From Streptomyces sp. NBC_00461 (GTDB taxonomy: Bacteria; Actinomycetota; Actinomycetes; Streptomycetales; Streptomycetaceae), in contig NZ_CP107902.1 of the NCBI RefSeq assembly GCF_036013935.1, positions 2,141,001 through 2,205,000 on the forward strand: a stretch of 64,000 nt of DNA, read 5' to 3'. A program made the translations under genes and the position numbers. The notes beneath the pieces are model-generated. The model worked only from the letters and a program-made list of their open reading frames with translations, searched no databases and was not told the DNA's origin. Below, piece after piece: positions 411 to 10,579 of the stretch. The stretch's first letter is position 1. Each line of letters starts with the position of its first letter.

Positions 411-1190
411 TCAGACCAAGTTGCGCTCCCCCGCCTCGACCGCGATGTCCAGGGTGTTCCCGGGCGGTGGGAAAGGGCAGATGAAGTGGTCGGCGAAAGC
501 ACACGGCGGCAGCAGGGCGCGGTTGAGGTCGACGGTCGTACGGCCCTCGGCGTCGGGAGCGGCCGGGTGGAGGAACCGGAACCGGTAACTGCCCCTCCCG
601 CTGGACGCGTCGGCGAAGACCGCCCACAGGACGTCACCCTGGACCGTGACCTGGAGCGTCAGCTCCCGCCCGTCGAGTTCGAAGGCCAGTTCCCCGCCGA
701 GCCCGAGTCCGCGCTCGCGTCCGTCCGCGTTCTCGACGCGTACGGTGCGGTCCTCGCCGTACCGCGTGAAGCGCCCCGGCACCGACCAGCGCGGGTCGTA
801 GGGCGTGGCCTCGATGCCGTTGAACGCCCGGCGTGCCGCGGAGTCGGGGTCGAAGTCGCGTACGCCCCATACGCCTTCGCGGACCAGCACGACCAGCCGG
901 CGTCCGCCGTACGCCACACGCGCCTCGGCCACCGGGCCGGCATCGGCCGCGAGCCGGACCTCACCGGAGAGGACCTGCCCGTCCACGGTCAGGCCGTCCC
1001 TCTCGTCGGCGCCGAGCACCACCGAGTCACCGTCGGCCGCCCAGATCCCGGGGATGTCCGGAAGTCGCCCGTCCGGATAGTCCTCGAACCAGTACGTGCC
1101 GGTCAGTGCGAGCGGCCCGTAGGGCGCCGAAACCGTCTCGGCGCGGTGCTCCTGCCATTGCTTCCATGCGTCGGACGCGTCCGAGGTCAT
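411..1190 (-). CDS. DUF1684 family protein
   Basis: 259 residues starting ATG at 1190. The sequence has the family's typical opening (WKQWQEHRAETVSAPYGPLALTG, then GTYWFEDYP) and the downstream GELAFELDGRELTLQV and PPCAFADHFICPFPPPGN motifs, where members carry conserved Asn/Pro/Tyr-type residues. The family is cytosolic and has no established reaction. The gene begins 24 bases after the stop of the flavin monooxygenase gene upstream on the same strand, so it is probably the last gene of that operon and may act on a product of the same pathway. No signal peptide or membrane segment is visible. The upstream ribosome binding site is weak, consistent with coupling. Confidence 0.85.
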   Translation of the reverse strand: MTSDASDAWKQWQEHRAETVSAPYGPLALTGTYWFEDYPDGRLPDIPGIWAADGDSVVLGADERDGLTVDGQVLSGEVRLAADAGPVAEARVAYGGRRLVVLVREGVWGVRDFDPDSAARRAFNGIEATPYDPRWSVPGRFTRYGEDRTVRVENADGRERGLGLGGELAFELDGRELTLQVTVQGDVLWAVFADASSGRGSYRFRFLHPAAPDAEGRTTVDLNRALLPPCAFADHFICPFPPPGNTLDIAVEAGERNLV

Positions 1191-1214
1191 GCGATCAGTC
1201 CTGTCGTCATGTGG

Positions 1215-2525
1215 TCAGCCCTTCCGGACCGGGTCGGGCAATCCGAGATGTGAGCGCAGGGTGGCGCCCTGGTATTCCGTGCGGAACGCGCCGCGTTCCT
1301 GGAGCAGCGGCACCACCTTGTCGACGAACTCGTCGAGTCCGCCCGGGGTGATCAGCGGTTGGAGGATGAACCCGTCGGCGGCGTCCCGCTGCACGAACTC
1401 GTCGAGTTCGGCGGCGACCGCCTCCGCGGTGCCGACGAAGGACTGCCGGCCGCTCGCCTCGATCACGGTCTGCCGGATGGACAACCCCTTCTCCTTCGAC
1501 AGGGCCCGCCACTTCTCGGCGATCACGACGCTGTCGCCGCGCCGGGTCCGGCCCTGGCTGATCCCCGGCTCGGCCACCGGGTCGATCTCGGGGAGGGGCC
1601 CGTCCGGGTCGTACGAGGACAGGTCGACCCCCCAGATCTGCTCCAGCGCGAGGATCGCGTTCTGCGGGGAGACCTGTTGGCGCCGGATCCGGTAGGCCTT
1701 CTCCTGCGCCTGTGCCGCAGTGTCGCCGAGGACGAAGGTGACGCCTGGCATGATCTTCAGATCGTCCGGGCCGCGGCCGTACTTCTCCAGGCGGCGCTTG
1801 ACGTCGGCGTAGAAGGCGCGCCCCGCCTCCAGCGAGCCGTGCCGGGTGAAGACCACGTCGGCCGTGGCGGCGGCGAACTCCCGCCCCTCGTCGGAGTCCC
1901 CCGCCTGGATGACGACGGGGTGCCCCTGCGGTGAGCGCGGCACGGTGAACTCGCCCGCGATGTCGAAGTGCCGCCCGCGGTGCGCGAAGGGGCGGGGGAT
2001 GCCGTCGGCGGTCCAGGAGTCCCACAACTTCCGTGTCACCTGGACGAATTCGGCGGCGCGGGTGTACCGGTCGGCCCGGTCGAGGAAGCCGCCGCGCCGG
2101 AAGTTCTCGCCGGTGAAGGCGTCGGAGGAGGTCACCACGTTCCAGGCGGCCCGACCGCCGCTGAGGTGGTCCAGCGTGGCGAGTCTGCGGGCGAGTTCGT
2201 AGGGCTCGTTGAAGGTCGCGTTGACGGTGGCGGCGAGTCCGAGGTGTTCGGTGACGCCGGCGAGCGCGTTCAGCACGGTGAGCGACTCGGGGCGTCCCAC
2301 CACGTCCAAGTCGTGGATGCGGCCCTTGTGTTCGCGCAGCCGCAGGCCTTCGGCAAGGAAGAAGAAGTCGAACAGCCCGCGTTCGGCGGTGCGGGCGAGG
2401 TACTCGAAGGACGAGAAGTCGATCTGTGACTTCGAGCGCGGATCGGCCCATACGGTGGTGTTGTTGACGCCGGGGAAGTGCGCGGCGAGATGGATCCGTC
2501 TCCGCGAAGGCCGTCGTACGGTCAT
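1215..2525 (-). CDS. NtaA/SnaA/DszA-family FMN-dependent monooxygenase
   Basis: 436 residues from the ATG at 2525; an in-frame ATG at 2543 lies in a duplicated copy of the same 18-bp context and would add six residues. The protein starts with RRRIHLAAHFPGVNNTTVW and has the large-subunit pattern of this luciferase-like group: HDLDVVGRPESLTVLNALAGVTEHLGL, AWNVVTS, and GHPVVIQAGDSDEGREFAA. Family members use FMNH2 supplied by a separate reductase to oxidise sulfur or nitrogen compounds (dibenzothiophene sulfone, nitrilotriacetate, S-modified cysteines). ATGA overlap with the upstream LLM gene suggests translational coupling. The neighbouring amino-acid transporter and Cys leader suggest an S-containing amino-acid derivative as substrate, which is inference. 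Confidence 0.9.
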   Translation of the reverse strand: MTVRRPSRRRIHLAAHFPGVNNTTVWADPRSKSQIDFSSFEYLARTAERGLFDFFFLAEGLRLREHKGRIHDLDVVGRPESLTVLNALAGVTEHLGLAATVNATFNEPYELARRLATLDHLSGGRAAWNVVTSSDAFTGENFRRGGFLDRADRYTRAAEFVQVTRKLWDSWTADGIPRPFAHRGRHFDIAGEFTVPRSPQGHPVVIQAGDSDEGREFAAATADVVFTRHGSLEAGRAFYADVKRRLEKYGRGPDDLKIMPGVTFVLGDTAAQAQEKAYRIRRQQVSPQNAILALEQIWGVDLSSYDPDGPLPEIDPVAEPGISQGRTRRGDSVVIAEKWRALSKEKGLSIRQTVIEASGRQSFVGTAEAVAAELDEFVQRDAADGFILQPLITPGGLDEFVDKVVPLLQERGAFRTEYQGATLRSHLGLPDPVRKG

Positions 2526-3619
2526 GACGTCGCCCCTGTCCATGACGTCGCCCCTGTCACGGCGTACCGGTTGGCGGGTTTCGCGAGGCCCAGGTGCTCC
2601 CGAAGTGTGCTGCCCGGGTAGAACGTGCGGAACAGGCCGCGGTGCTGGAGCAGGGCCACGGTCCCGTTGACGAGCCGCTCCAGGTCTCGGCGCGGCTCGG
2701 TGGGCGTGAGGTGGAAGCCGTCGACGACGCGGTTGGTGTGCCAGGTGGCGATCAGCTCGGCGAGGTCCACGGGGCCGCCCCGGTACCGGGGGCCCTGCGC
2801 GCTCTGCCGGGGGCCGCCCCCGCCGTGGCCCGGCTCGGCCGCGTGCTCACCGTCACCGAGGTCGACGAGGAGGCTCGCGAGGACGCGCAGGCTGTCGGGG
2901 TTGCGCCCGAACTCCGAGGCGGTACGGCGCAGTTGCTCCCGTACGGCGGCGGCCTGTGCGGCGCTTGCGACCCGTACGAGGGCCACGTCGGCGTGGCGCG
3001 CCGCGGTGCGCCGGGCGTGCCCCTCGGTGGCGTCGATCACGCGCACGGGGTGGCCCTGCGGGGGACGCGGCACGATGGAGGGGCCCTTCACCGAGAAGGT
3101 GGTGCCGGTGAAGTCGACGTGGTGCAGCTTGTCCCGGTCGATGAACCGGCCGGTCGCCACGTCCCGTATCTCGGCGCCGTCCTCCCAGCTGTCCCACAAC
3201 TGGTCGGCCACCTCGGCGACTTCGCCCGCCTCGTGCCACAGCTCGTCGACGGGCGCCGCGTGCCGGCGGCCGAAGAGGCGGGCCTCGCCCTCCGTGGTGG
3301 ACACGTCGATCTGCCAGCCGGCCCGGCCGCGGCTGACCCAGTCGAGGGTGGCGACGGCGGCCTGGACATGGAAGGGCTCGGTGTGCGTGGTCGTGACGGT
3401 GGGCACCAGGCCGATGCGGGCCGTGGCGGGGGCGATGCGGGACAGGACGGCTAGGGCGTCGGGTCCGGGGCGGGCGAAGGTGTCGCCCAGCGTCACGAAG
3501 TCGAGTCCGCCGCGCTCGGCGAGCCGTGCGCGTTCGACGTAGGAACCGGCGTCGTACGCGCCTTCCTGATCGAGGGCGGCGGCCAGGTGCAGCAGCCCCC
3601 GGCCGTGCGATGAGGTCAT
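2522..3619 (-). CDS. LLM-class flavin-dependent oxidoreductase
   Basis: 365 residues from ATG 3619, with GAAGGG upstream. It is a luciferase-like TIM barrel protein: GLDFVTLGDTF near the N terminus, PTVTTTHTEPFHVQAAVATLDWVSRGRAGWQIDVSTTEGEA, and HPVRVIDATEGHARRTAARHADVAL are typical segments. It is shorter than the NtaA-type partner encoded next to it and resembles the second monooxygenase of two-LLM clusters such as CmoO/CmoJ in Bacillus. The gene starts 13 bases after the ABC ATPase gene and its stop overlaps the next start. The C terminus (VTGATSWTGATS) contains a repeated six-residue unit created by a tandem DNA duplication. Confidence 0.85.
   Translation of the reverse strand: MTSSHGRGLLHLAAALDQEGAYDAGSYVERARLAERGGLDFVTLGDTFARPGPDALAVLSRIAPATARIGLVPTVTTTHTEPFHVQAAVATLDWVSRGRAGWQIDVSTTEGEARLFGRRHAAPVDELWHEAGEVAEVADQLWDSWEDGAEIRDVATGRFIDRDKLHHVDFTGTTFSVKGPSIVPRPPQGHPVRVIDATEGHARRTAARHADVALVRVASAAQAAAVREQLRRTASEFGRNPDSLRVLASLLVDLGDGEHAAEPGHGGGGPRQSAQGPRYRGGPVDLAELIATWHTNRVVDGFHLTPTEPRRDLERLVNGTVALLQHRGLFRTFYPGSTLREHLGLAKPANRYAVTGATSWTGATS
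2523..2558. repeat. 18-bp tandem duplication at a stop/start junction
   Basis: The unit catgacgtcgcccctgtc occurs twice head to tail (2523-2540 and 2541-2558). It covers the end of the second LLM gene and the start of the first. In the proximal copy the base after the duplicated TCA makes TGG instead of TGA, so the upstream protein gained six residues and the downstream gene gained an alternative in-frame ATG. Confidence 0.9.
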
Positions 3620-3632
3620 GTGGGGGATCCCT

Positions 3633-4394
3633 TCAGAGAACCTTGGAGAGGAACGCCCGCGTGCGCTCCTGTTGTGGCCGGTCCAGTACGTCCTCCGGCG
3701 TGCCCTGCTCGACGATCCGCCCGTCGTCCATGAAGACCACCGTGTCGGCGACCTCGCGGGCGAACCCGATCTCGTGCGTGACGACGATCATCGTGGTGCC
3801 CTGTCCGGCCAAGTCCCTTATGACGTCGAGTACTTCACCGACCAGCTCGGGGTCGAGCGCCGAGGTCGGTTCGTCGAAGAGCAGCAGCTTCGGCTCCAGG
3901 GCGAGGGCCCGGGCGATGGCGACGCGCTGCTGCTGGCCACCGGAGAGCTGCCGGGGATAGGCGTCGGCCTTGTCCGCGAGGCCGACCCGCTCCAGCAGCC
4001 GGCGCGCGCCGGCCATCGCCTCCTTCCGGGGCCGCTTCAGCGCGGAGACCGGCGCCTCGATCACGTTGTCCAGCACGGTCAGGTGCGGGAACAGATGGAA
4101 GTTCTGGAAGACGAAGCCGATCCGCGTGCGCTGCTTGAGCACCTCGCGCTCGGGCAGTTCGTGCAGCTTGTCGCCGGAGCGCCGGTAGCCGATCAGTGTG
4201 CCGTCCACGCTGATCGCGCCGTGGTCCACCTTCTCCAGATGGTTGACGGTGCGCAGCAGCGTCGACTTGCCGGAGCCGGACGGGCCGAGGACGACGGTGA
4301 CCTCACCGGTGCGCACCTGAAGGTCGATGCCCTTGAGGACTTCGAGCGAGCCGAAGTTCTTGTGGACGGACCTGATGTCGACCATGACGCTCAT
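3633..4394 (-). CDS. Amino-acid ABC transporter ATP-binding protein (GlnQ type)
   Basis: 253 residues from the ATG at 4394; further upstream codons in frame belong to the end of the FAD protein region and are not family-like. Walker [10 protein letters not shown] is at residues 37-45, the Q-loop glutamine at 97, the signature LSGGQ at 150-154, Walker B LLLFDEP at 170-176 and the switch histidine at about 207, all intact. It is the polar amino-acid uptake ATPase that works as a dimer under the permease encoded at 6175-7032. It lies in one minus-strand run with that permease, an FAD protein and two LLM monooxygenases. Together with the divergent binding protein this makes a complete importer, with cystine or a cysteine derivative as the best guess for cargo. 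Confidence 0.92.
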
Positions 4395-4420
4395 CGCGGG
4401 GCTTCCTTGGGATCGGGGTG

Positions 4421-6178
4421 TCATGCGGCCGCCTGGGAGGACAGCCGGGACAGGAACCGCAGCGCGGCCCGTGCCGTCGCGTCGTTCTGCCGGAAGGCGG
4501 GACCGCCGGTGCGCGGCCGGGTGAAGGCTCCGGGCGTGCGTCCGTCGGTGTAGGGCCCGAGCGCGAACCGCCGGGGATGCGGCAGGCCCGCCCGGTCGAG
4601 GATCCGCCCGTCGCCGGGGTCCACCCGGAGCAGCCCGTCGGGGGTCTCGGCGACGCCGTCGGCGTGCAGTTCGCGCAGCAGGGCGTCGCGGGCCCGTCCC
4701 ACGGTGGGCTCGGGCAGTCGGGCCTCGACCAGCGTCCTCGCCTCGACGAAGAAGTCCGGCACGGTGGCGCTCGACGCCCGGAACACCCCGTCCTCGCCGC
4801 TGACAGTCATGCCGGCGCCCAGGAACTTCAGGACACCGGCGCGGGAGAGCGCCAGCATCTGCCGCAGTCGCGGCCCGGGCGGCCCGGAGGCCACATAGCT
4901 GAAGAAGCCGTGCCACCAGGGGCCGATGCCGCCGAGCCGGACCAGCTGGCCGTAGACCGAGAGCAGCGCGAGGAACACCGCCAGGTCCGGGCTGTACCGC
5001 GGATCATGACGTCTGCTCAGATCCCCCTCGACATAGCCGCGCAGTCCCTCCTGGAACTCCTCGAACGAGCCGTACCGCACCCCGTCCAGCGGGTGGTCGA
5101 GCGCGTCCAGGTCGAGCCGGTCGGCGGGGTCGGGCACGGCGGACGCCACGAGCGCCTCCCGCTCGGCGACGTCGGCCGCGGCCGCGTACTTCTCCTCGAA
5201 GACGCTCCAGGCGACGCTCGTCCGCTCCGGATGCACGGTGAACAGCCGGTGGTAGTGGGCGAACCCCAGCTCCTTCGCCACCAGCGGCCACACGTCCCGC
5301 CGGAAGTCGAACCCCTGGGGCCGCGCGAGCAGCTCGTCGACCTCGGCAGGCCCGAAGAACCGTGGCAGCGGCGGCCGTTCGCCGCTCCAGTCGTAGCCGA
5401 TCTTCGAGTGGTACGGCACTCCGCGCCGCGAGCCCACGTACAGCACCGGTTCCTGCCCCGAGGGCACATACGTGTCGCCCTCGTACCGTCCGCCCCGCCC
5501 CTCGGTCAGCAGCACCATCAGGTCGACGAAGGCGAGTCCGAACCCGCGCACGAGGACGGGTTCGCCGGCCTTCAGCGCGGAGAGGTCGCTGTCGGCGGTG
5601 AAGTCGGGCGGGAGGTGCAGCAGACCGTGATCTCGGGAATACGTCGCCAACGCGCTCTGTTCGTCGTCGAGTTCGGCGTCCAGATGGCCGAGCGCGAGGA
5701 CGACGAGGTCGGCGGGGAGCGGGCGCGGCCGTCCCTCCAGCCACACCTGCTGGCGGCCCTCGCGGGGGCCGCTGACCCGCAGGGCGCGCCGCGGATGGTG
5801 GTGGACGGTGACGTCCGGTGGCAGGGCGGCGACAGCGCGTTCGTGCACCCAGCGCAGATACGACCCCTGCAGCGGCCGGTCGGCGAAGACGCGGCCGTCG
5901 ATGCCGGCCCACTCGTGCAGCGTGGGGCCCTCGCTCACCGGGCCCTCCATGGCCACCGTCTCGTCGGTGAACATGGTGATGTCCTCGGCGTGGGAGTTCA
6001 TCCACAGCAGCGGTGACTGCGCGGCGCGCCAGATGCGTCCGGCGCCCGGCTGATGGGGGTCGACGAGGTGGATGTCGAGGCCCGAACCGCCGTACAGCTC
6101 GGGCGCGTTGGCGGCGATCCGCTCGATGAGACCGGTCCCCCGCGGACCGGCCCCGACGATCACCAGGGAAGGCCTCAT
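4421..6178 (-). CDS. FAD/NAD(P)-binding protein
   Basis: 585 residues from ATG 6178, whose ATG overlaps the stop of the permease gene. The N terminus [19 protein letters not shown] carries the Rossmann GxGxxG motif. Further segments such as [29 protein letters not shown] and [14 protein letters not shown] match the family of large FAD-NAD(P)-binding proteins with a C-terminal extension. The reaction is unknown; relatives are annotated as putative flavin N-monooxygenase- or amine-oxidase-like. Its place between the permease and the ATPase genes of an amino-acid importer, and before two flavin monooxygenases, suggests that it oxidises the imported substrate or a product. No membrane segment is evident. 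Confidence 0.8.
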
Positions 6179-7032
6179 CGCGCGCCTGCCGAACCGCGGG
6201 CGTAGTGCTTCTCCACGTAGTACTGGGCGAGGCCCAGTACCGAGGTGACGACGGTGTACCAGAGGGTGGCCACCATCAGCAACGGGATGACCTGGTAGGT
6301 GCGGTGGTAGATCAACTGGGCTGAGAACAGCAGGTCGTTGACCGCGATGACGCTGACGATGGACGTGCCCTTGAGGGCGCCGATCAGCATGTTCCCGGCG
6401 GGCGGCACGATGGAGCGCATCGCCTGCGGCAGCACGATCCGCCGCCAGCGCCGCCATCTGCTCAGCCCGAGCGCCTGGGCGGCCTCGATCTGCCCGCGGT
6501 CGACGGCCAGGATGCCGCCGCGCACCACTTCGGCGGCGTAGGCGGCCTCGTGCAGGGTCAACCCCACGATGGCGACCTCGACCGGCCCGAGCAGGTCGAC
6601 CGTCCGCACCCCGAACAGCTCCGGGTAGAGGGCCCCGATGTTGAACCACAGCAGCAGCTGCACCAGGATCGGAATCGACCGGAACAGCCACACGTACCCC
6701 CAACTCACGCTCCTCAGAACGGGGTTGGCGGACAGGCGGAACGCGGCGAGCAGGGTGCCGAGGGCAAACCCGAGCACCATCACGACGGCGGTCAGCCACA
6801 GCGTGAGCCACAGCCCGCGCAGGACGGAGTCCGAGGTGAAGTAGTCGGCGACGACGTCCCACTGGAACGCCTTGTTGCGCAGGACGGAGTTGACGGCAAG
6901 GCCGAGGAGCGCCAGAACGACGACCGCGGCGGTCCACTGACCGAACCGGCGCTGCGGAACGATCCGCAGGGCCTCCGCGCGCTCCGGCAGGTCCGGGACG
7001 GCGGGAACTTTGGCGAGGGTGTCGGAAGACAT
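6175..7032 (-). CDS. Amino-acid ABC transporter permease (HisM/GlnP type)
   Basis: 285 residues from ATG 7032, with GGAGCC upstream. After a cytosolic N terminus there is one hydrophobic segment (about residues 33-50), then the standard membrane domain of this family starting LRGLWLTLWLTAVVMVLGFALG. The ATPase contact motif EAAQALGLSRWRRWRRIVLPQAMR is intact. Polar amino-acid permeases of this group form homodimers with the GlnQ-like ATPase. The gene is the first of the minus-strand operon and is divergent from the binding-protein gene at 7439. A candidate promoter lies at 7148-7178. Confidence 0.93.
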   Translation of the reverse strand: MSSDTLAKVPAVPDLPERAEALRIVPQRRFGQWTAAVVVLALLGLAVNSVLRNKAFQWDVVADYFTSDSVLRGLWLTLWLTAVVMVLGFALGTLLAAFRLSANPVLRSVSWGYVWLFRSIPILVQLLLWFNIGALYPELFGVRTVDLLGPVEVAIVGLTLHEAAYAAEVVRGGILAVDRGQIEAAQALGLSRWRRWRRIVLPQAMRSIVPPAGNMLIGALKGTSIVSVIAVNDLLFSAQLIYHRTYQVIPLLMVATLWYTVVTSVLGLAQYYVEKHYARGSAGAR

Positions 7033-7147
7033 GGGAAGGCTCCGTGGTGGGTCCCCCGCTCGGGCGAAGCCGAGAACGGAGGAGAGTCGAACACGGGTGG
7101 TGCCTTCACACGGATGCGGCCGAGCCCCTCAGCGGGGCCGCCTGTCG

Positions 7148-7178
7148 AGACTACGTGTGCGTTTCCCCTCACTGTCAA
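7148..7178 (-). promoter_or_regulatory. Candidate promoter of the importer/monooxygenase operon
   Basis: On the minus strand TTGACA (7178-7173) is followed after 19 bases by TAGTCT (7153-7148). The spacing is slightly long for a housekeeping promoter, but the -35 is perfect and such hexamers are rare in this GC-rich DNA. It would give a 5' untranslated region of about 110 bases before the permease start. Confidence 0.4.
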
Positions 7179-7214
7179 GGCTGTCCGAACTGTGAGCGGT
7201 ACGTCTCAAGTCAG

Positions 7215-7243
7215 TTGACGCACAACCGGATGCCTGTTCCACT
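7215..7243 (+). promoter_or_regulatory. Candidate promoter of the Cys leader and binding-protein gene
   Basis: TTGACG (7215-7220) is followed after 17 bases by TCCACT (7238-7243), which would place the transcript start at or next to the leader ATG at 7250. No ribosome binding site precedes that ATG, so a leaderless transcript is the simplest reading. The -10 element is weak. Confidence 0.4.
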
Positions 7244-7249
7244 TGGCCC

Positions 7250-7321
7250 ATGCATCCACAGCAGTGGCTGGTCAAGCGCTCCCACATCGACCTCGGTCGC
7301 GTGTGGTCCTCCTCCTGTTGA
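7250..7321 (+). CDS. Cysteine-type regulatory leader peptide
   Basis: A 23-codon open frame, ATG to TGA. It contains KRSHIDLGRV followed by WSSSC and the stop, so its only cysteine codon (TGT) is the last sense codon. Actinobacterial leader peptides with the pattern (R/K)xH(I/V)DLxR ending in Cys precede sulfur-assimilation and cysteine-linked genes. In mycobacteria related Cys-rich short frames act as cysteine-responsive attenuators. Here an intrinsic terminator starts 12 bases after the stop, and a binding-protein gene follows. The proposed role is ribosome-mediated sensing of cysteinyl-tRNA supply. The match to the pattern is seen in the sequence; the mechanism is inference. Confidence 0.8.
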   Translation: MHPQQWLVKRSHIDLGRVWSSSC

Positions 7322-7332
7322 GCTGACCCCCT

Positions 7333-7364
7333 GCCCCGCCCTGAATTCTCGGGGCGCTCTTTTT
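7333..7364 (+). terminator. Intrinsic terminator/attenuator after the leader peptide
   Basis: GCCCCG (7333-7338) pairs with CGGGGC (7350-7355) around an 11-base loop, followed by a run of five T at 7360-7364. A T-run after a GC hairpin is uncommon in this genome's GC-rich context. Its place between the leader and the binding-protein start makes it a candidate attenuator rather than an operon end. Confidence 0.65.
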
Positions 7365-7438
7365 GCGTTCTCCTCTCTCGCCTTCACACGCGCCCTCCCC
7401 TCACTCAGCGTTTCTCGCTCTCAGGAGACCGCCCAGCC

Positions 7439-8389
7439 ATGCGCACACCCCTGCATGCCCGAAACAGACTCATCACCCCCTTTGCCCTGATCACCGCGGC
7501 GACACTGCTTCTCACGGCGTGCGGCTCGGGTGCGGACGGCACCACCGACGCCGTGGGCGCGGCGGACAAGTCCGACAAGGTCCCCACCACCGACGTCGTC
7601 TCCGCCGTCGGCAAGGACGAGAAGTCCGCCAGGCTGCTGCCTTCGGGCGTCAAGGGCCTGACGGTCGCCATCAGCGTCGGCGGCACCCCGCCCGGTACCA
7701 CCTACCTGGCCGACGGCAAGACCCTCACCGGCCAGGACGTCGACTTCGCGAACGCCGTGGCCAAGGTGCTCGGCATCAGCCTCAAGACCGAGCAGGCAGG
7801 CTTCGAGGCGATCCTGCCGGCCCTCGACAGCGGCAAGTACGACTTCGGCGCCAGCAACTTCGGCGTCACGGACGAACGCCGCACAACGATCGACTTCGTC
7901 ACCTACATCAACGACGGCCAGGGCTTCGCCACCCGCAAGGACAGCAAGCTGTCCAAGGTCACGGACCTCAGGCAGCTGTGCGGCCTGAACGTCGCGACCG
8001 GCGCGGGCACCACCTTCGAGGCCACGCTGGAGGAGAACAAGAAGGTCTGCACGGACGCCGGCAAAAAGGCCTACGCGGTACAGACCTACGGCGAACAGGG
8101 AGCCATCTGGTCCTCACTCCAGCAGGGCCGCAGCGATGTCGTGATGTCCACCATCAATGGCCTGCGTTACGCGGTGGCCCACCAGGAAGGCGTGAAGTTC
8201 CTCAACGAATACCACCGCCTCGATGTCGGTTTCGCCTTCAAGAAGAACACGAAACTCGCGCCCGCTTTCCAGTCGGCGGTGAACAAGCTGATAGCGGACG
8301 GTACTTACACCAAGATCCTCAAGAAGTGGGGCACTACGGGCTCGGCGATCGAGAAGTCCCGGATCTCCCCGCCGGAACTGAAAAACTGA
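7439..8389 (+). CDS. Amino-acid ABC transporter substrate-binding lipoprotein
   Basis: 316 residues with AGGAG upstream of ATG 7439. A signal peptide ends in the lipobox LLTAC with Cys28 as the lipidation site. The mature protein is an SBP family 3 protein: GQDVDFANAVAKVLGI, the FEAILPALDSGKYDFGASNFGVTDERR segment, and a C-terminal NKLIADGTYTKILKKWG helix. It delivers a polar amino acid or derivative to the permease/ATPase pair encoded divergently. Expression appears to be gated by the Cys leader upstream, which points to a sulfur-containing ligand. It ends 10 bases from the convergent CvnD-like gene. Confidence 0.93.
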   Translation: MRTPLHARNRLITPFALITAATLLLTACGSGADGTTDAVGAADKSDKVPTTDVVSAVGKDEKSARLLPSGVKGLTVAISVGGTPPGTTYLADGKTLTGQDVDFANAVAKVLGISLKTEQAGFEAILPALDSGKYDFGASNFGVTDERRTTIDFVTYINDGQGFATRKDSKLSKVTDLRQLCGLNVATGAGTTFEATLEENKKVCTDAGKKAYAVQTYGEQGAIWSSLQQGRSDVVMSTINGLRYAVAHQEGVKFLNEYHRLDVGFAFKKNTKLAPAFQSAVNKLIADGTYTKILKKWGTTGSAIEKSRISPPELKN

Positions 8390-9110: not shown

Positions 9111-10277
9111 TCAGCAGTCACACCCGCAGTCGCAGCAGTCGCACCCATCACAGCAGTCGCAGTCACAGCAGCTGCAGCACTCACAGCAATCGCCGCAGTC
9201 CGTGTCCTTGCAGAGCCCGTCCTTGCGCTCATGGCTCCACGGATCGTCGTACTCGCCGCAGCACATCTGGCACGTACAGGCGAGCCCCGCCCACACCGCA
9301 CAGCCCGCCAGCAGCCCGCGCCTGTCGCGCCGAGGCGGCTGTGGGGGCAGGGGCGGGCCACCGGGACCGCCGGGCGGCGCGTACGACCCGGCCGGCGTCG
9401 GGGCCGACCCGTGCGCACAGGCCGCCGTTCCGAAGGCCCGGTCGACGGAGACGCGCAGCTCGTGCACGAGCAGCCGATGCGCCAGCTTGCCCTCCTCGAA
9501 CTCCACCTCGTGCAGCGCGAGCCGTATCCCGTGCAGGGCGTCGTCGGCGAGCCGCCGGGCCTCGGCGAGCGAGGTCCCGGTCGCGGTGAGCGGGTTCCAC
9601 GCACCCGACGCGGCGTCAGTTTCCTTGTCCTCCACGGCATCCAGCAGATGCGCGAGCCGACCGAACAGCCGCCCGGCCTCGGCGAGCGGCTCGGCGTTAC
9701 CCGGCCGTCCCGCCAGGACCGCGGTGTACGCGAAGGCCGCAGCGGTGGCCGTCTCCGTCGGTTCGGTGACCGTCAGCACCGGCGTCCCGGGCCCGGCGAG
9801 CGCCTCGATGCCGAGCTGCCGCTCCACGGCGTCCACGAGAACCGCCGTGTCGAACCCGACCTCGGATCCCGTACGGGCCCCTGCCGCACCCCAGCTCGAC
9901 GCCACCCGGCGTGCGGCGAGCGCGACCGGCCTGCGCGCCAGCAGCCCGTCCCCGTCGGCGACATGGTCCCTGACCTTGGCCGAGGCGAGCACCAGCGAGA
10001 CGGCGGCCGCGAGCCGCGCTCCTTCTCCCTGTGCGACGGACGCGGTACGCATCCCGCGCAACGGACAGGGCCCGGCCGTACGCCGCCATTTCCCGGCCCG
10101 TTCCGCCTGAGCCTCCGTCAGAACCGATATGAGCAGTCCGTCGTAGTTGGTGACGACCCGCGCGAACTGCCCGTGGTCCTTGCGCAGCGCGAGACACAGC
10201 CCGCACAAGTGCGCCATCCACTGGGACTTGAGACGCTCACCGAGCCGATGGCTACAGGGCCTGACGATTCCGAACAC
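9111..10277 (-). CDS. DUF5685 family protein with Cys/Asp-rich C-terminal tail
   Basis: 388 residues from a GTG at 10277 preceded by GGGGGG; the start gives the family's N terminus MFGIVRPCSHRLGERLKSQW followed by HLCGLCLALRKDHG. The middle is alpha-helical and alanine-rich. After a Pro/Gly linker and a short hydrophobic stretch (GLLAGCAVWAGLACTCQMCC), the last 39 residues hold 17 cysteines alternating with aspartates (for example CDCCDGCDCCDCGCDC). The family has no known reaction; the tail looks metal-binding, like a metallothionein. The gene ends 111 bases before the CvnD-like gene, so the two may be cotranscribed. The matching DNA is a low-complexity cag/cac tract. Confidence 0.8.
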   Translation of the reverse strand: MFGIVRPCSHRLGERLKSQWMAHLCGLCLALRKDHGQFARVVTNYDGLLISVLTEAQAERAGKWRRTAGPCPLRGMRTASVAQGEGARLAAAVSLVLASAKVRDHVADGDGLLARRPVALAARRVASSWGAAGARTGSEVGFDTAVLVDAVERQLGIEALAGPGTPVLTVTEPTETATAAAFAYTAVLAGRPGNAEPLAEAGRLFGRLAHLLDAVEDKETDAASGAWNPLTATGTSLAEARRLADDALHGIRLALHEVEFEEGKLAHRLLVHELRVSVDRAFGTAACAHGSAPTPAGSYAPPGGPGGPPLPPQPPRRDRRGLLAGCAVWAGLACTCQMCCGEYDDPWSHERKDGLCKDTDCGDCCECCSCCDCDCCDGCDCCDCGCDC

Positions 10278-10579
10278 GATGATCCCCCCGTGACGCATGT
10301 GACTTCTGATGCGGCGTTGAGCGGCGGCATCGTATCGACCACCCCGTTCACCCGTACGCCCCGCCCGTCACCCGTACGCCGTGAAGAATCATATTTCACT
10401 CACAGTCAGCATCGGCATACTGCAACGCCCTTGGGATACCCGGGCTCTCGACGGATTCGCTCTGCACCAGTACCGTCACAAACCCCCCGCGCGGCGTCTA
10501 TCCACTTGGCGCGCCAACCGCATCATGGATGACCATAGGGGTGCGGAAAGCAGAAGGACCGCTGTGAGAGGAGGCGTCC
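10278..10579. other. Divergent intergenic region, DUF5685 / sepF paralogue
   Basis: 302 bases with an AT-richer patch around 10385-10405 that may hold promoters in either direction. No convincing hexamer pair or palindrome was found. A strong ribosome binding site (GAGAGGAGG) lies just before the sepF ATG. Confidence 0.4.

Follow-up and report, generated by a model that had tools for sequence, protein, structure and literature searches.

By means of a single UGU codon at a fixed place, a tiny gene that stands before an uptake gene of cystine type most likely allows Streptomyces to notice when cysteine runs short. The tiny gene lies in a stretch of 64,000 nucleotides from Streptomyces sp. NBC_00461, called the window here. 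It is a 23-codon frame (7250-7321), and behind it comes a gene for a solute-binding lipoprotein (SBP). Judged from sequence comparison, the element is real and conserved, and in all likelihood a cysteine leader. We put the probability at roughly 0.55 that it acts as a ribosome-mediated, cysteine-responsive attenuator that senses cysteine at UGU and works through premature termination in the gap between leader and gene. Control of this type is already known; the rule that links codon and spacing appears strikingly strict.

A sequence-only reading of this DNA had named an amino-acid binding-protein gene behind the leader, and the PF00497 match of the gene at 7439-8389 bears this out (Table 1). 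Against NCBIfam every match of the SBP stayed below its cut-off, with a cystine-binding model third at 82.7 bits. The closest NCBIfam models of the divergently transcribed permease were ectoine EhuC (152 bits) and a cystine permease (148 bits), neither of which reached its cut-off; the divergent gene was present in all 53 leader loci with sufficient flank. Further left lie a FAD/NAD(P)-binding protein, an ABC ATPase whose best match is cystine TcyN (325 bits, where the cut-off is 406), and a pair of luciferase-type monooxygenases, of which one is above the NtaA/DmoA cut-off. With the permease and a DUF1684 protein, these genes form a minus-strand cluster at 411-7032, which by its annotations looks like one for taking up and degrading an organosulfur compound, and which presumably resembles sulfur-scavenging clusters such as Bacillus ytm/ytn. 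At 9111-10298 on the minus strand there is a 395-aa frame whose C-terminal tail, read by eye, is very rich in Cys and Asp.

Table 1. Features of the leader locus, in window coordinates
Feature	Position	Strand	Basis
Divergent ABC permease, amino-acid type	6175..7032	-	PF00528
Promoter-like pair TTGACG-17-TCCACT, 6 nt 5' of ATG (leaderless geometry)	7215..7243	+	sequence reading
Leader ORF MHPQQWLVKRSHIDLGRVWSSSC, ATG 7250 to stop TGA 7321	7250..7321	+	frame read, ortholog conservation
Predicted hairpin within leader ORF, CCACA-CGAC ... GTCG-TGTGG, codons of HIDLGRVW	7282..7306	+	predicted fold
Putative sensor codon TGT (Cys23), 11 residues past motif His	7316..7318	+	60/60 23-codon orthologs TGT
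C-rich, G-poor gap (C 0.46, G 0.20), candidate Rho loading region	7322..7438	+	composition
Post-stop hairpin CGCCCTGA-ATTC-TCGGGGCG, 8 pairs (6 GC)	7337..7356	+	terminator scan; ortholog stability
T-rich tail CTCTTTTT of terminator-like site	7357..7364	+	sequence, scan; not generally conserved
Near-invariant C-rich block CGCCTTCACACGCG, 14 bases	7379..7392	+	38 distinct close orthologs, columns >=95% identical
Shine-Dalgarno AGGAG of binding-protein gene, complementary to TCCTCCTG of Cys tract	7423..7427	+	duplex prediction
Solute-binding lipoprotein gene (SBP), SBP_bac_3, amino-acid type	7439..8389	+	PF00497, E 2.5e-27

The frame had been described as ending in its only Cys codon, and reading it confirmed this: the sole Cys codon is the final one, TGT at 7316-7318, directly before the TGA stop. 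Upstream, TTGACG (7215-7220) and TCCACT (7238-7243) are separated by 17 nt, and the second hexamer lies 6 nt from the ATG. TTGACG was found in all 55 distinct ortholog upstream sequences, at a distance of 29 nt (50 sequences) or 30 nt (five) from the ATG, and TCCACT at -12 to -7 in 49 of the 55. This conserved geometry makes a leaderless transcript, predicted to start at the leader ATG, plausible, as the sequence-only reading had allowed. A generic sigma-70 scan reported no promoter site; its rule wants A as the second base of the downstream hexamer, a base that TCCACT does not have there.

We sought SBP homologs in named genomes, which gave 27 loci (two from Pseudomonas were set aside), and in 150 Streptomyces genomes, 63 of which had a match; 30 of these loci, including the window's own, and 20 of the 33 remaining places were read. 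The leader frame was present in 63 of 75 homologous upstream regions and absent from 12, counts that are not independent because the named-genome and genus-wide sets have some sequences in common and because orthologs share ancestry. Sixty of the ortholog frames have 23 codons, 35 of them being distinct, and all 35 end in TGT and TGA, so the frame conservation in other Streptomyces that had been proposed as a check was found; three further leader frames have other lengths. The peptide is strongly conserved among orthologs. Where the amino acid is invariant (M and W left out), the codon was invariant as well at 13 of 15 leader positions, whereas in the SBP genes of these 40 loci this was so at 35 of 136 (p = 6e-6); the window's orthogroup is therefore also under constraint in its nucleotides. 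An alignment of the leader region (49 of 52 distinct sequences, leaving out three with a different post-stop sequence) was near-invariant up to two bases beyond the stop.

Codons 9 and 17 are associated among the 35 distinct frames: ACG9 occurs only with CGA17, ACC9 only with CGC17 or CGT17, and AAG9 with CGC17 or CGA17, which may reflect phylogeny or avoidance of a competing helix. Several of the SBP homologs that lack the leader (L071, L077, L084, L085, L088, L090, L092-L097) sit, by eye, directly 3' of an acetyltransferase-like gene, and in the two with long flanks, L071 and L077, the divergent permease is absent. Leader presence seems to follow gene context.

The sequence-only reading had also assigned the frame to the actinobacterial (R/K)xHIDLxR...C leader pattern. 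This assignment held, as the window peptide carries the core motif and a Cys 11 residues after the motif's first position (HIDLGRVWSSSC), a feature derived here. Its profile scores count against the attenuator: 17 bits (E 0.0034, cut-off of 27 not reached) for NF042934, the actinobacterial "putative leader peptide" family (cis_reg_atten), and 21 bits, below the cut-off of 45, for NF042936, the Ms4527A Cys-rich leader; a genome-wide profile search gave 14.7 bits for NF042934, and an Rfam search found no match at E up to 1. The peptide shares with both families the core motif and the place of the Cys, and profile matches follow the same codon rule; it differs in scoring below cut-off, in having Cys as the very last codon and in its tail, VWSSSC. 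We consider the window leader, from these features, to be a divergent relative of the NF042934 family.

The same genome holds at least 24 NF042934 matches at E up to 10, at least seven of them over cut-off, with the window 13th among those scored; these are lower bounds, since 150 of 390 candidates were scored. The first 11 were taken as leader candidates, and the 12th, inside a gene, was dropped. By Pfam and NCBIfam assignment, the 11 mostly precede sulfur genes, among them a cysteine dioxygenase, a pair of luciferase-type monooxygenases of which one exceeds the SfnG cut-off, a ThiS-type protein, an SsuC-like permease, a nitrite/sulfite reductase, a flavin reductase, a rhodanese and a cystine-like permease; a GST-like and a ROK protein are also found behind them. 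The leader before the ROK-family gene, L010 (C1:3397066-3397116), is of the same family, and a ROK-type regulator of sulphur genes has been described in Corynebacterium glutamicum (PMC2580772). A further 139 leader matches came from 14 nearly complete Streptomyces genomes; 130 of them were read, making with the 11 a set of 141 Streptomyces leaders whose downstream gene starts were picked by an automatic score, some surely wrongly. Those with the motif group into 31 orthogroups.

Counting offsets from the first motif residue, the H of HIDLGR, the orthogroup-weighted fraction of Cys at +11 is 0.94, against 0.02 and 0.11 at the neighbouring positions; the first Cys after the motif stood at offset 5 in 26 of the 31 orthogroups. 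Cys occupies +11 in 133 of the 141 Streptomyces leaders, and the eight exceptions speak against the attenuator. Five of these stand before GST-like genes or close relatives. The leaders of the GST-like group (L006, L173, L198, L208, L211) have no Cys at +11 and one at +7, which could be a changed or lost sensor.

Selection by a protein profile can favour Cys but is blind to its codon, and the codon at +11 is TGT in 130 of the 133 Streptomyces leaders. It is also the majority codon there in all but one of 30 orthogroups, that of the window being among the 29, and stands at +11 in all 60 frames of the window orthogroup, 18 of which have a second Cys at +9, also TGT. The remaining Cys codons of the same Streptomyces leaders number 29 TGT versus 109 TGC (29/138). 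As background, the genes called in the window have 25 TGT versus 125 TGC (25/150) and 52 SBP genes have 0 versus 157; the contrast is weaker for the first ~65 codons of the downstream genes (10 versus 19). As an outside check we searched 60 genomes of the class (own included), 45 of which had a match, and took one leader from 40 of the 41 matching genomes of other genera. Thirty-seven of these 40 leaders have the motif, the other three having variant motifs, and the +11 Cys is coded TGT in 37/37, compared with 14 TGT versus 36 TGC for other Cys codons after the motif start; the non-genus leaders that match the NF042934 profile obey the rule as those of Streptomyces do. L292 and L294, from two genomes of another genus, have a six-Cys run that mixes TGT and TGC, in which the +11 codon is TGT.

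What appears to be new here is this near-invariant TGT at a fixed distance from the motif, with TGC mostly elsewhere in the same leaders, and it supports cysteine sensing at one UGU codon. Among 68 tRNA candidates of the genome (one without an ARAGORN call) there are two tRNA-Cys genes, both with anticodon GCA, and UGU is therefore read by wobble. Control codons such as UGU would be chosen for sensitivity, for which the rare Leu codons of the enteric leu leader are a precedent. The tie of the locus to cysteine or sulfur supply, drawn earlier from the sequence, gains support from the UGU rule, the conserved leader and the sulfur genes behind paralogs. A literature search, which had the key mycobacterial study outside its reach and leaves absence unproven, found nothing on the UGU rule or the off-step of Streptomyces cysteine leaders. 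The eight leader peptides listed for S. lividans in the relevant part of PMC8079986 include none for cysteine; passages of PMC8914203, which offers an S. griseus example of Term-seq and Ribo-seq data, and of PMC11550727 are further related literature.

The conserved core of the peptide is R-x-H-[IV]-D-[LF]-x-R, followed by Cys at a fixed distance. Over 32 orthogroups, the information at codon positions 1/2/3 is 2.0/2.0/1.21 bits for Asp, 1.68/2.0/0.58 bits for Arg at +5 and 1.44/2.0/0.78 bits for Leu. Because the amino acids are kept while third bases vary across orthogroups, conservation at the peptide level is favoured, and a purely RNA-level reading of the HIDL motif is disfavoured. There is also an RNA signal, weaker than that of the peptide: codons 10-23 fold better than synonymous recodings in the window orthogroup (mean z -1.66, 19 distinct segments), as does the segment over 31 orthogroups (mean z -0.74, p = 9e-4). 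For an extended fold of the leader ORF plus 18 nt past the stop z was only -0.84. Peptide and RNA signals may both be present in the leader.

The attenuator that we favour would work as follows. When Cys-tRNA(Cys) is scarce, a ribosome would pause with the wobble-read UGU in its A site, perhaps assisted by the nascent peptide; staying at the end of the frame, it would prevent premature termination in the gap, and the SBP would be expressed. When cysteine is plentiful, the ribosome would leave fast and transcription would end in the gap. Geometry and composition favour Rho for this termination, to which an intrinsic terminator may add in this strain. We give an about even chance to transcription termination as the off-step, a somewhat lower one to masking of the Shine-Dalgarno (SD) sequence and a small one to something else. 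With Cys at the very end of the frame, a stalled and a terminating ribosome would lie 3 nt apart, which makes a switch by position alone unlikely; stall time, Rho access or SD release would fit as well or better.

C exceeds G in the leader-gene gap in all 32 orthogroup means. The difference C minus G averages +0.178 over 31 orthogroups, compared with +0.032 over 49 distinct control upstream regions of this genome (p = 2.8e-8), 32 of which have C over G, and within 90 nt past the stop C is over G in 39 of the 40 non-genus leaders. Together with a ribosome paused at the frame end, this composition fits Rho termination, but it is no proof, and causes other than Rho could lie behind C-rich gaps. 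The block CGCCTTCACACGCG sits in an otherwise variable gap and is partly complementary to CGCGTGTG of the leader.

In E. coli tnaC, a ribosome stalls at the end of a short frame that has conserved residues at fixed distance, and a Rho-sensitive region lies past the stop. The window leader shares the C-rich, G-poor region after the frame, here a candidate for Rho, the peptide residues at fixed distance and, as proposed, a frame-end stall; unlike in tnaC, arrest and ligand are hypothetical here, and the likeness is one of layout. In the part of PMC1262725 that treats cys leaders, Seliverstov 2005 predicted leader peptides without obvious terminators and proposed Rho for the mycobacterial ones. 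Those leaders, from Mycobacterium, Propionibacterium and Bifidobacterium, also have Cys codons near the stop and a pyrimidine-rich region after it; unlike the window's, as far as those passages go, their Cys codons stand in runs and a conserved hairpin is lacking.

Translational attenuation in the mycobacterial style, in which the Cys tract pairs with the SD of the next gene and a Cys-stalled ribosome frees it, is a serious competitor of termination, if a less probable one. The work of Canestrari in 2020 reportedly concerns mycobacterial polycysteine leaderless short ORFs. In favour of the translational reading, a passage of PMC13236596 that cites Canestrari 2020 states that translation attenuation controls cysteine genes in M. 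smegmatis; the polycysteine ORFs are cited also in passages of PMC9094748 and PMC9031893, PMC7790235 names the study in its reference list only, and a cysA2 uORF is treated in part of PMC4633059. The window leader resembles these ORFs in being a short frame with a C-terminal Cys before sulfur genes, may by its conserved promoter geometry be leaderless as they are, and differs in that the adjacent Cys run is absent, the window having one Cys and the +9 Cys of 18/60 orthologs not being adjacent, and in that SD masking is a candidate only. The predicted duplex of Cys tract and SD is strong in the window (-26.4 kcal/mol) and in 41 close orthologs (-15.1 to -32.4), but in 22 distant orthologs, which keep the leader, it reaches -11.9 to -23.6, for the most part about as strong as in swapped pairs. 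The window group, tested on nine of its 63 members (six close, three distant), favours its own SD over swapped partners, with median ranks of 0.049 and 0.021, whereas own versus swapped ranks over 32 orthogroups showed no departure from uniformity (KS p = 0.24 and 0.38), so the swap test gives no support for pairing as a general rule of the family. In the free window fold the SD is paired with the leader at 0.82. Masking by a stalled ribosome has little effect in the fold models, raising SD accessibility from 0.14 to 0.18 (close-group mean) and from 0.01 to 0.04 (window), against 0.08 and 0.04, respectively, with a mask 33 nt further upstream.

The classical terminator switch, in which a stall at TGT would form an antiterminator that melts the hairpin at 7337-7356, is what the sequence-only reading had proposed. 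It is one of three live options for the off-step, and as a full account of the element we hold it to be unlikely. A terminator scan of 7030-7480 on both strands gave a single site, 7337-7356 with the tail CTCTTTTTGC (shuffle mean 0.2), and a run of five T at 7360-7364, so the GC hairpin and five T residues claimed earlier are there; the 8-pair stem begins 15 bases past the stop, and the claimed distance of 12 fits an alternative stem that begins at CCCCG (7334-7338). The window has, then, a predicted intrinsic terminator after the leader (7337-7364), of the kind that marks a trp-type attenuator. Shuffled sequences form less stable hairpins than the orthologs do (mean z -2.29 for the 41 close and -1.25 for the 22 distant ones), and in 14 of the 22 distant orthologs, picked for sharing an alignable hairpin, 98.4% of the hairpin's pair cells are standard, compared with at most 49.2% when slid; one pair covaries in these 14 (AU 8, GC 4, GU 2). 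Conservation, which had been suggested as a check, thus extends to the hairpin structure but not to a strong U tract: 20 of 63 orthologs had terminator-like sites with U-rich tails, where shuffling predicts 10. Among 38 close orthologs, 24 had tails with at least four T of nine (background 0.15) and 5 had at least five; these tail counts are rough, because for several rows, including that of the window, a different hairpin was selected automatically. Nor was a stall-favoured antiterminator found in the fold model, as the mean hairpin probability hardly altered between the free leader and one with a ribosome on the Cys codon (0.66 versus 0.70 in 41 close orthologs, 0.60 versus 0.58 in 22 distant ones), and on average the stalled ribosome had no effect on the hairpin; this want of a clear switch, for hairpin and SD alike, also counts against the attenuator that we favour. 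Single sequences such as L021 and L024 depart from the average, with a predicted antiterminator-like pairing between hairpin and freed leader. A conserved small protein or plain 5' element with no cysteine sensing is very improbable: the strongly conserved peptide could by its sequence have a function of its own, but the UGU rule at one position, the sulfur genes behind most paralogs and the frozen codons stand against it.

For the actinobacterial family as a whole, we consider tentatively, as a doubtful but possible extension, that arrest is assisted by the nascent chain, with the core lying in the exit tunnel ~6-11 residues behind the sensor and rendering the ribosome hypersensitive at that single wobble-read UGU, and with the UGU-paused ribosome shielding the gap from Rho. 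If this holds, one UGU per operon would fix the cysteine level at which the entire sulfur regulon responds. The fixed UGU, against UGC elsewhere, makes it a testable question whether codon, peptide or RNA is what counts, and with the UGU rule one could compile candidate sulfur regulons from actinobacterial genomes.
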